A stretch of 64,000 bases of DNA from an uncultured Verrucomicrobia subdivision 3 bacterium (GTDB lineage: Bacteria > Verrucomicrobiota > Verrucomicrobiia > Limisphaerales > UBA11358), in NCBI GenBank assembly GCA_903875465.1, contig CAIQWB010000099.1:62001-126000 (forward strand), in the 5' to 3' direction. Within the stretch, counting starts at the first letter, position 1; every line of letters starts with the position of its first letter. A program made the translations under genes and the position numbers. Positions 52,218 through 60,563 of this stretch are shown here, one piece after another. The notes under the pieces were generated by a model. The model did not search any database. It saw only the letters and a list, made by a program, of their open reading frames with translations, and was not told the origin of the DNA.

Positions 52218-52877
52218 TCAAGCCCGGCGGCGGAAGCGGCTCAGGAACAGATGGCTGGGGAGCATGATGACCAGCGGCAAGGCCACCAACAACAGGGCGA
52301 ACCACAGCTAACCGGGCATCCAGGTCTGGGCAACGGTGTCACTGAGGCCATACACATAATTCACATTCACGGGAGCCAGGGGGTTGGCCAGTCTGGCGCC
52401 CGGGGCGGGGAGGCAGCAGAAACTGATCGTCATGGCGGTCCAGGCAGTCAGGACCCAGGCGGGGAAGGCGCGGCGGTCGTAACCCAGACGGGCCACCAGA
52501 AACAGCAGTAGGAACGGGAGCCAGCCATGGAAGAAGGACAGGCCGCGCAAGAAAAGCGGGCGATGGGCATCGAACATGTAATCCGTCATGCCGGTAAGTT
52601 TCAGGCCGGCGAGGTGCGCCACAAAATCAGCGCACCAGAGCAGTTGAGGCAGAATGATGCCCACGGCGGCCATGCTGGCCAGCAGGGCATTTTCCAGCCA
52701 CACGGCGGCCAGGGTGACCAAGAGTGCCAGATCACAGAAATAAAGGAAATTGGTGGGCCCGTATTTTGCCCAGTAGACGGGGATCAGCACGGCCAGGAAG
52801 GCGGTGTAGGCGAGCTTGATCGCGCGGGGGATGCGAGGTGACGGTTTCGTGAGCGTTGGATTTGCCGGTGTCTTCAT
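52218..52877 (-). pseudogene. Multi-span membrane protein with premature amber stop
   Basis: The frame opens with MKTPANPTLTKPSPRIPRAI and has about five membrane segments (AYTAFLAVLIPVYW, FLYFCDLALLVTLAAVWLE, ASMAAVGIILPQLLW, FLRGLSFFHGWLPFLLLFLV and others). It stops at TAG (52308-52310) after QTWMPG. Past the stop, the same frame continues LWFALLLVALPLVIMLPSHL and ends RFRRRA at 52218, adding a further membrane span. That suggests an ancestral Trp codon mutated to TAG or a base error. The truncated form would have 189 residues, the full one 219. Function unknown. The MITE copy D lies just upstream. Confidence 0.75.
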
Positions 52878-57615: not shown

Positions 57616-57661
57616 GCCCCAAGCTTGTGCATTATTGGGGGTGCATTAATTTAATGGTTTG

Positions 57662-58891
57662 ATGATTTCACGACGCATCGTGGTGGTGGGTGGGGGCGCG
57701 GCGGGGTTTTTCGCGGCGATCGCCGTGGCGGAAAGCGCGCCCGGAGCAGAGGTGCTCCTGTTGGAACGCACGGCGAATTTTCTGGCCAAGGTCAAAATCT
57801 CGGGCGGCGGGCGCTGCAATGTCACACACGCCTGTTTTAATGGGCGTGAATTCACCACCCGTTACCCGCGCGGGGAGCGCGCGCTGATCGCGCCGTTTCA
57901 ACAATTTCAGGCGAGCGATACGGTGGCCTGGTTTGCGGCGCGGGGCGTGGAACTGAAAACCGAGCCGGATGGCCGGATGTTTCCGATCACGGATGACTCG
58001 CAGACGATCATTGATTGTCTGGTGACGGCGGCGTTGAAAGCGGGGGTTAAGTTGCACGCGCAGTGCGGTGTGGAAGGGATCACGCGAACGGCGGCGGGCG
58101 GGTTTGCGCTGACGCTGTCCACGGGCAAGATTTTGGAGTGTGACGGGGTGTTGCTGGCCACGGGGGGGTGCCGCACGCCGGCGTTGGGGCAACTGGCGGT
58201 TTCGCTGGGGCACACGCTGGAAGCGCCGGTGCCTTCGTTGTTCACCTTCCAAATTGCGATTCCGTGGTTGCGCGCCCTAGCGGGGGTTTCCGTGGAGACG
58301 GTCGAGCTGACGGTCCCGGGGGCCAAGTTGCGGGAGCGCGGGCCGTTGCTGGTGACGCACTGGGGGCTGAGCGGTCCGGCGGTGCTGCGGCTTTCGGCGT
58401 GGGGGGCGCGGAGTTTGCAGGCGTGTAATTACCAGTTTCCGCTACTGGTCAACTGGCTGCCGGCTTGGAACGAGGAAACGCTGGCAGCAGAATTGCAGCG
58501 GCGGCGGCTGGCGCATCCGGCCAAGATGGTGACCAATGCCCCGGTGGCTCCGCTTTCGGCGCGGTTGTGGGAGCAACTGGTGGCCGCCTCGGGTCTGGCA
58601 CCGGACACGCGCTGGACCGCGCTCGGCCGGGCGGGGCAGCATCAATTGATTCAGCAATTGCTGCGCACCGCGTTTCTGGTGACGGGCAAGAGTTTGAACA
58701 AGGATGAGTTTGTCACCTGCGGCGGGGTGCGCTTGAGCGAGGTGAGTTTCAAGACCATGGAGAGCAAGGTGTGTCCCGGACTCTATTTCGCCGGCGAGGT
58801 GCTGGACGTGGACGGCATTACGGGCGGCTTCAATTTTCAAGCGGCCTGGACGACTGGCTGGCTGGCGGGGCGGGCGATGGCGGGGGCTTGA
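57662..58891 (+). CDS. NAD(P)/FAD-dependent oxidoreductase, YhiN/HI0933 family
   Basis: The FAD Rossmann motif VVVGGGAAGFFAAIAVAE is at the N-terminus, followed by LAKVKISGGGRCNVTHAC, the YhiN/HI0933 signature. KTEPDGRMFPITDDSQTII and LLATGG (second GG motif) follow; the end has GGVRLSEVSFKTMESKVCPG and EVLDVDGITGGFNFQAAW. 409 residues is full length. The family is flavin-binding with no settled substrate. It is separated by 46 bases from the MEKHLA gene. Confidence 0.94.
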   Translation: MISRRIVVVGGGAAGFFAAIAVAESAPGAEVLLLERTANFLAKVKISGGGRCNVTHACFNGREFTTRYPRGERALIAPFQQFQASDTVAWFAARGVELKTEPDGRMFPITDDSQTIIDCLVTAALKAGVKLHAQCGVEGITRTAAGGFALTLSTGKILECDGVLLATGGCRTPALGQLAVSLGHTLEAPVPSLFTFQIAIPWLRALAGVSVETVELTVPGAKLRERGPLLVTHWGLSGPAVLRLSAWGARSLQACNYQFPLLVNWLPAWNEETLAAELQRRRLAHPAKMVTNAPVAPLSARLWEQLVAASGLAPDTRWTALGRAGQHQLIQQLLRTAFLVTGKSLNKDEFVTCGGVRLSEVSFKTMESKVCPGLYFAGEVLDVDGITGGFNFQAAWTTGWLAGRAMAGA

Positions 58892-58928
58892 ACCGGCTGG
58901 AAATTAGCTGTCCACCTGGGATGGTAAA

Positions 58929-59183
58929 TCACGGCTTTTTGTGGCTAATTATTTCGTTCATCCGTTTGGCTGCGCCCGCTGACGCGCCAGCCAGCCAGTC
59001 TTGCGAGCGAGCCAGGTCACTTGATTCCGGGAGGTGAAACAGCACGTTGAAAGATGCCAAACCACTGCGATATTCATCACAATATGCCTCAAGGTATGCA
59101 ATCTTTGATTCGGGCTGGGAATCAAATGGGGTCAAGGAGGGAACTGTTATTTCCCCATGCCGAGCGGCTTCAAGCGGCTGCAT
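58929..59183 (-). CDS. Hypothetical 84-aa protein
   Basis: A short frame with reasonable composition, including SKIAYLEAYCDEYRSGLASF and WLAGASAGAAKRMNEIISHK. No family was recognised. The same frame is open further upstream towards the decayed hicB locus, so it could be a fragment fused to that region by rearrangement. Coding is uncertain. Confidence 0.3.
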   Translation of the reverse strand: MQPLEAARHGEITVPSLTPFDSQPESKIAYLEAYCDEYRSGLASFNVLFHLPESSDLARSQDWLAGASAGAAKRMNEIISHKKP

Positions 59184-59287
59184 CCAGCGTAATTGCTGAC
59201 CCGGGTTTTCGACTGGCAGGCTGAAAAAGCCCGGGCCATTGCCGGGAATATGATAAATGGAATAACACGCATTGAAAATATACGTAA

Positions 59288-59317
59288 AATTTGGCGGATG
59301 AGTTCCCGCCGTTTCAC
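59288..59317 (-). pseudogene. HicA-like stub downstream of hicB
   Basis: Ten codons starting GTG encode VKRRELIRQI, which resembles the start of HicA-type toxins, 26 bases after the hicB stop. The frame then continues with sequence unlike HicA, so the toxin gene would be lost. The match is short. Confidence 0.3.
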
Positions 59318-59343
59318 ACCCGAAGCGTTGCCGCTTCGCAGTC

Positions 59344-59526
59344 CTATTGGGCGGCGGTCAAGGCTGCTTCGCGGTTAAATTCCAAAGCCTCTTTGAGGGC
59401 AGAACGCAAGTGCTTCAACAGTTCCACCCGGGTTTTTCCCTGGGAATTGACACCAGGAATTTCCTGCACTCAGCCAATCCACCAGCCGTCGTCCTGCTTA
59501 ATGATGGCATTGAAGGTTCTTTTCAT
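59344..59526 (-). pseudogene. HicB-type antitoxin gene interrupted by TGA
   Basis: The sequence reads MKRTFNAIIKQDDGWWIG, then TGA (59470-59472), then VQEIPGVNSQGKTRVELLKH and LRSALKEALEFNREAA to a TAG. This is the HicB pattern: N-terminal partially degraded RNase-H-like fold, EIPGVNSQGKT core, then the helix. Trp is expected at the stop codon, so it is a nonsense mutation or a base error. Intact length would be 60 residues. An upstream in-frame ATG two codons earlier is also possible. Confidence 0.75.
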
Positions 59527-59648
59527 GCGCATAATCTAATCACACTTTTCTGAATTAGCAAACCGGCCTTGGTCAAGGTTCCGGCAATGACCTGCAGGCC
59601 AAGGCGCCCCATTGACTTGCGGTGGCAGTTGGCCGCAGCCAAGTTGCC

Positions 59649-60563
59649 TCACATCCGCAAAAACACCCAACCGGAGAAGGAGACGGCGATCAAGCCGGCG
59701 GCGGCGGCGAGGGACCAGAGCAGACTCTTTTGCCGGGCAGCCAGGGCGAAGGTGGAAATGACCACGCCCATTTGCGCCGCGAGCATGCCGTAGAAAAACC
59801 GGGCGCTGCGTTTGTGATGGCGTTCGGCGGAGGCGTTGGACTTGCGCACTTGTAATTCGAAAACGTTGCCCACGACCTGGTTTAGCCGGGCCTCATTATC
59901 ATAGCGGGCGGTGCCGAAGCGCAGTCGGGCGGCGGTGAAGCCTTGCAAGGTGGCGCGATCGGCGCCCGGTTTGGTGAGGAGTTTTTCCACGTGGTCCAGG
60001 TTGGCGGTGACGGGTTTGATTACGCCATCAAAGGCCAGGGCCTGAGCTTTGGCCGCGCTCATGGCGGCACTCAAATCGTCCTCGGTGACCTTGGTGAGCA
60101 GGTCGGCGACATCGGTTTCCGGCCGGGCGGCGGCGAGGGCATCCAGCGCGGTTTGCACGTTGGGGGCGATGACCGGTCCGGGAGGGGCCGTCGGCAGTTC
60201 GGTCTTTTCCAAGGCGGCCAGGGTGGCAGCGATCGCCGGGGCTTTGAGGGTGGTCAGGGCGGCGGTGACCTCCGCGCTGTTTAACGGCGGCACGGGCAGG
60301 GTGGCTTGCAGCAATTCAAGGGTGTTTTGCTGGAGGGCACCCCGCAATTTTTTGGCTTGGAAATAGCTCCATTGATCGCCGGCTTTGGACTGGAGCTGGG
60401 CGGCCAGCGAGCGGTCGTACTGGGCGTGGGTCATTTCGCTGGAGGCAATCCCCGCGAGCAGGGTGGCAATGACGGTCATGATGATGGGCGTGGTACCCAG
60501 CACCTTGCCCCAAGTGTTCTGGGGCAGCTCGGCTTTTAAATTATCGGGGATTTTGGTCTTCAT
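59649..60563 (-). CDS. DUF4337 domain protein
   Basis: Two membrane segments at the ends (TTPIIMTVIATLLAGIAS near residue 30 and GMLAAQMGVVISTFALAA plus SLLWSLAAAAGLIAVSF near 260-300) flank a long helical region of about 190 residues. The signature HAQYDRSLAAQLQSKAGDQW and WSYFQAKKLRG identifies DUF4337. The helical part has an Ala/Leu/Thr-rich composition typical of an elongated periplasmic or cytosolic coiled coil. Function unknown. It lies 18 bases downstream of the YebC gene, so it is likely co-transcribed. Confidence 0.88.
   Translation of the reverse strand: MKTKIPDNLKAELPQNTWGKVLGTTPIIMTVIATLLAGIASSEMTHAQYDRSLAAQLQSKAGDQWSYFQAKKLRGALQQNTLELLQATLPVPPLNSAEVTAALTTLKAPAIAATLAALEKTELPTAPPGPVIAPNVQTALDALAAARPETDVADLLTKVTEDDLSAAMSAAKAQALAFDGVIKPVTANLDHVEKLLTKPGADRATLQGFTAARLRFGTARYDNEARLNQVVGNVFELQVRKSNASAERHHKRSARFFYGMLAAQMGVVISTFALAARQKSLLWSLAAAAGLIAVSFSGWVFLRM

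Follow-up and report, generated by a model that had tools for sequence, protein, structure and literature searches.

A decayed hicBA locus with two premature stops in its hicB remnant in a genome of Verrucomicrobia subdivision 3

Class 2 hicBA modules are described in PMC10865869 as pairs with a small HicB that lacks a DNA-binding domain, and the review PMC7167474 describes how toxin-antitoxin (TA) systems decay through deletions and nonsense mutations. The locus reported here is a decayed hicBA pair that has undergone ordinary decay, and it illustrates clearly, on a small scale, how chromosomal TA systems usually end, with loss of the toxin and nonsense changes in the antitoxin. It lies in a window of 64,000 nucleotides, which is the whole stretch of DNA analysed and forms part of a 200,950-base contig; the draft genome totals 5.3 Mb and comprises 153 contigs. 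The closest named relative loci of its hicB in a contig pattern search were from Verrucomicrobia MAGs, several of them belonging to subdivision 3, and the host is accordingly most likely an uncultured bacterium of this group.

The hicB remnant, assigned by homology and frame reading, covers codons 1 to 61 on the minus strand (59344-59526), and its frame, starting at 59526, translates as MKRTFNAIIKQDDGWWIG*VQEIPGVNSQGKTRVELLKHLRSALKEALEFNREAALTAAQ*. The initial annotation had recognized here a HicB-type frame with an internal TGA, and both are present: the frame runs from 59526 to 59344 and the TGA, at codon 19 (59472-59470, minus strand), replaces the third Trp of a WWIGW motif. The read-through frame, P0001, matches relatives at 85% (E 3.9e-31), 68% (E 2.1e-24) and 77% (E 1.0e-23), a homology to hicB that, at the level of sequence, exceeds chance. 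Trp does fit at the TGA, as had been proposed, because codon 19 is Trp in 24 of the 25 other loci compared and Ser in one (L047); hicB from G036 has a TAA at this same position. Likewise, Trp stands opposite the TGA in 28/28 other rows of alignment A2, which were hand-picked from 80 loci and retrieved with two search patterns, one of them containing that same Trp.

What did not hold is that the frame is complete except for the TGA. The TAG at 59346-59344 (codon 61), where the gene had been taken to end, is likewise premature and thus the second such stop, because hicB from intact relatives has around 70 codons and ends near codon 71, ten codons past this TAG, with its stop TGA overlapping the GTG start of hicA. 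Codon 61 is T, Q, S, D, K or N in nine aligned relatives, and this stop is not a Trp change. The 26 bases reported between the TAG and the hicA GTG at 59317 are indeed there and correspond to the former end of hicB, since the relatives run on and the old TGA (59316-59314) overlaps the hicA GTG; the former last hicB codons, closing with this ancestral TGA, span 59314-59343 on the minus strand. In a model of the relative L055, the TGA lies within strand 2 of the predicted HicB fold, and the TAG by itself would remove no more than the tail, past a helix whose last residue is 59. The TGA would truncate the product to 18 residues, inside that strand, and the remnant would yield no working HicB.

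The HicA-like stub VKRRELIRQI, after which similarity had been described as lost, was also found as claimed. It occupies 59292-59317 on the minus strand and starts at 59317, exactly where the overlap of its GTG with the old hicB stop predicts, and it is alike to the intact hicA of L026 at 23 of its 26 bases, the count being 26/45 by base 45 and 31/60 by base 60. A tblastn search of the contig with hicA retrieved nothing convincing for the rest of the gene (best E 0.47). The next 119 codons on the minus strand, in a different frame from hicA, are all open and form P0002 (58929-59288, 119 amino acids plus stop), which is unrelated to hicA and may be what is left of the 3' part of some other gene that became joined to the stub. 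P0002 matched 1/59 genomes, the window's own, and 4/384 genomes at E up to 0.01, the own included; a weak relative occurs in G543 (L224; 34% over 71 residues, E 1.3e-6), and searches of Pfam, NCBIfam, plasmids and phages returned nothing for it.

We assessed Class 2 membership by the position of hicB upstream of hicA and closely linked to or overlapping it, by a HicB of 63-103 codons without a DNA-binding domain, and by a complete HicA domain. As judged from sequence, the intact relatives fit Class 2 hicBA. In the window, hicB precedes hicA, the GTG of the stub overlapping the former hicB stop; no DNA-binding family appeared among the Pfam matches of 29 HicB members at E 0.01, the window's frame being cut at codons 19 and 61; and only about 26 bases of hicA are left. 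HicA from the relative L004 passes Pfam PF07927 (39.1 bits for a cut-off of 27, E 8e-10). The UPF0150 family was matched at E 0.01 or better by 25 of the 29 HicB members, with P0001, L004 and L055 scoring 22-23 bits, below the Pfam cut-off of 27.3. A genome search with PF15919 (HicB_lk_antitox) gave matches at two other places and none at the locus, and PADLOC and NCBIfam gave no match. A PDB search with one protein retrieved HicB of Burkholderia at E 0.074, and a PDB profile search with A2, followed to E 0.1, retrieved only CutA and TTHA1756 (best E 0.023), HicB being absent. The AlphaFold2 model, which is of L055 and not of the window's frame, has a pLDDT of 92, and its two best Foldseek matches are solved HicB structures with probability 1.00, the best E value being 4e-3 and none reaching 0.001. 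On this model, HicB would have a partial RNase H fold like that of solved HicB. The window's genome contains a further HicB-like antitoxin match with an internal TAA (L001, G000:C26:5266-5541).

The remnant lies between an HI0933-like flavoprotein gene (57659-58891, plus strand) and a DUF4337 gene (59649-60563, minus strand). The nearest genome of the genus is G012, as estimated from the identities for DUF4337 (76%) and for a membrane-protein gene discussed below (81%), and its YebC, DUF4337 and HI0933-like genes keep the same order (91, 76 and 88% identical). The matches to the flanking DNA are 68 bases apart in G012 versus 769 in the window (58882-59650, no strand assigned); this stretch, whose edges reach a few bases into the flanking genes, is without counterpart at the same place in G012. 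Its GC content is ca. 0.50-0.56 in the middle versus 0.61-0.67 outside. The HI0933-like gene is next to DUF4337 in two of twelve loci (L134-L145), those of the window and of G012, and it is absent from the sequence stretch covered in the other ten. Based on these comparisons, the stretch of ca. 770 bases was likely gained in the window's lineage; alternatively, it is possible that it was lost in G012, the comparison resting on one genome.

When 320 genomes of the order were searched with a profile, 37 of them gave matches at E 1e-10; these number 43, counting the window, and six of the 43 carry internal stops. Five of these six were read, leaving out the one in G238: besides the window and G036, they are G016 (TGA at codon 16), G090 (TAA at codon 3) and G166 (TGA near codon 60). 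A contig pattern scan found a stop within the match in 2/80 kept loci, the same G016 and G166 loci. We scored hicA by eye in 26 loci, comprising 24 of the best 25 profile matches, from which a second G114 copy is absent, plus the hand-picked L055 and L061. It was full-length or nearly so in 16 of them and broken in the other ten (L005, L029, L037, L039, L040, L041, L045, L047, L055 and the window, L036). At least five of these ten have an open hicB beside the broken hicA (L055, L029, L040, L041 and L047); in L055, the second-best relative in the contig pattern search, the adjoining hicA is cut at codon 15, and in L037 hicB has a foreign tail. Premature hicB stops occur in three of the ten loci with broken hicA (L005, L036 and L039) versus one of the 16 others (L035), an association that is not significant in these 26 loci (Fisher P = 0.26).

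The L005 locus (G016:C117) is a second hicBA copy that is decaying independently; beside its hicB with the TGA at codon 16, hicA has a TGA where the relatives have Cys (KICRDLG). A separate observation concerns L054, whose intact hicBA sits between two direct copies of 84 bases that are 85% alike (1874-1957 and 2398-2481). We take these copies to be like the 3' end of trpB, and they may reflect the way in which the pair came to be inserted. Plasmids gave no match to the read-through HicB, and 1/46 pattern matches in viral contigs encodes a relative.

Over codons 20-60, the window and L026 differ with a dN of 0.085 and a dS of 1.9, which is saturated, and intact pairs with L026 show a dN of 0.061-0.18, indicating no relaxation of this part of hicB relative to intact pairs. 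The frame was therefore constrained for most of the divergence, so that the TGA is recent or, in principle, tolerated, and the decay is too recent to be told from continued selection. The tail (codons 61-70) is uninformative, because the dN of the window, 0.29-0.61, overlaps that of intact pairs, 0.14-0.56.

The second Trp-to-stop change of the window lies in a membrane-protein-like frame on the minus strand (52877-52221), otherwise open, where the amber stop claimed at 52308 was confirmed as a TAG at 52310-52308 after which 29 codons continue. Trp is opposite this TAG in all five homologues read in register (L201-L205). The gene has matches in 16/49 genomes of a genus search, the window's genome (G000) included. 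The G012 copy (L201, G012:C105; 81% identical) has Trp at the site of the window's TAG and one TAG at another Trp (FFHG*LPF), and G021 has pieces of the gene on both strands, one with a TGA. Between the window and G012, dN is 0.125 and dS 0.755 for the gene, with values of 0.19 and 0.64 over the 29 codons after the TAG. From these sequences, the gene looks dispensable and appears to have been lost more than once. In a tblastn stop scan of the G012 contigs, swamped by wrong-frame matches, it was the one case placed in a real gene among the matches listed; a sulfatase control gave six matches, none with stops, which are too few to weigh.

The genome appears to use the standard stop signals. The prfB gene (RF2) is present, with 463 bits against its model (cut-off 370), and, of the 91 long open frames of the contig, 39 end in TGA, 39 in TAA and 13 in TAG. 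Rfam found 42 tRNAs in the genome, all of them read by ARAGORN, and none of the 42 has a UCA or CUA anticodon; this set has gaps, with no tRNA-Asn or tRNA-Ile called, so that a tRNA may have been missed or may lie outside the assembly. The presence of RF2, the anticodons of the 42 tRNAs and the use of TGA as an ordinary stop agree with the initial annotation in that recoding of UGA is unlikely, and the standard code stands. Two candidates were rejected. The sole above-threshold match for tRNA-Sec is a tRNA-Ser(TGA) gene, and a degenerate tRNA (G000:C65:43377-43451, L187), called 'Stop (tta)' by ARAGORN, has the loop TTTACAC, presumably from a decayed tRNA-Val(TAC). A scan for internal stops based on codon usage, run over the whole 200,950-base contig, separated coding from non-coding frames poorly and needed 30 open codons on each side, and is therefore no test of either the hicB TGA (codon 19) or the TAG at 52308 (29 codons after), neither of which is among the scan matches listed.

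Several readings would leave a functional hicB, or a special cause, at the TGA. A sequencing or consensus error, or a G-to-A change from DNA damage, affecting an otherwise retained orphan hicB would agree with the well conserved frame around the TGA, which was under constraint, and with L055, which keeps an open hicB beside its truncated hicA; we consider it improbable, given a second stop where relatives do not have Trp, the loss of most of hicA, and the stops in the same Trp motif in G016 and G036. Nor is the base-calling or consensus bias formerly offered as an alternative needed; a base-calling error could account for the hicB TGA at most. In the intact hicB of L026, six of the eight transitions that create a stop hit a Trp codon, as do 22-51% of the single-base nonsense changes with transition weights of 1-5, so that Trp nonsense needs no special cause; likewise, 16/18 transitions to stop fall on Trp in the window's copy of the membrane-protein gene, whose Trp codons are many. 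The description of two Trp-to-stop changes in otherwise intact genes was thus right about both changes and wrong about hicB being intact, because of its second stop and the lost hicA.

The conservation downstream of the TGA would also be expected if UGA were read as Trp at the site, producing a 60-residue HicB whose folded part, ending with the helix at residue 59, is spared by the TAG at codon 61. The only tRNA-Trp found (CCA, L151:1498-1573) has an anticodon stem of five pairs (G27-U43, C28-G42, G29-C41, G30-C40 and U31-A39) and G at position 24, as numbered by hand. Its top pair is thus a G-U wobble, and a G24A change or loss of the top anticodon-stem pair in tRNA-Trp is described to raise UGA reading (PMC13092985). 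Against such readthrough, which we regard as very improbable, stand the five pairs and the G24 that the stem keeps, the release factor, anticodons and stops detailed above, the loss of hicA, which leaves nothing here to neutralise, and an RNA around the TGA that folds no better than shuffles (z -0.32). An equally doubtful variant is that a leaky tRNA-Trp, through its weak top stem pair, permits a low level of UGA readthrough that softens selection against Trp-to-stop changes in the genus; the cases cited are hicB in G000 and G016 and the membrane-protein gene in G000 and G012, and this reading does not cover the TAG cases and relies on a tRNA-Trp seen from the window's genome only. Least probable of all is termination and reinitiation at TGAGTG, where the GTG directly after the TGA opens a 41-residue frame and would give a split HicB of 18 + 41 residues: the cut falls within strand 2 of the predicted fold, at a codon that, as noted, is almost always Trp, and the partner toxin is gone.

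We thus consider it highly probable that a Class 2-type hicBA was acquired, probably horizontally, in the interval separating DUF4337 from the HI0933-like gene, and later decayed there. Points against this reading are the lack of relaxation in codons 20-60, the non-significant link of broken hicA with stopped hicB, and the poor recognition of the family by HicB sequence models. Decay, proposed at the outset as the simplest explanation, is a firmer reading than first claimed because there are three separate lesions: the TGA, the TAG and the loss of most of hicA. The pair would have entered between the two genes, probably by horizontal transfer, and the toxin was probably lost first, when a rearrangement joined the first 26 bases of hicA to other DNA. 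With no toxin left to neutralise, hicB would be free to take nonsense changes. The hicB TGA would be recent relative to the split from the nearest intact relative, and this TGA and the TAG at 52308 would be independent nonsense events. Two Trp-to-stop changes in one window require neither recoding nor base-calling bias, and the chief value of the locus is as a caution for annotation.

A verrucomicrobial genome with UGA where Trp is expected recalls Ca. Organicella (Verrucomicrobia, UGA-to-Trp code 4); however, its 158 kb endosymbiont genome is described in PMC8204192 as lacking PrfB and as having a tRNA with a TCA anticodon, whereas prfB is present in the window's genome and such a tRNA was not found among its 42. 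The intact relatives resemble Class 2 hicBA, as outlined in PMC10865869, in that hicB comes first, with ca. 70 codons, and overlaps a hicA of 61 codons; the window differs from that class in that only a stub of hicA is left and two premature stops interrupt hicB. Lastly, the E. coli case in PMC7167474, the ccd of E. coli O157, cited there by title, belongs to another TA family and another phylum, although the window's locus shares with the decaying chromosomal TA systems of E. coli that deletions and nonsense mutations bring about their loss.
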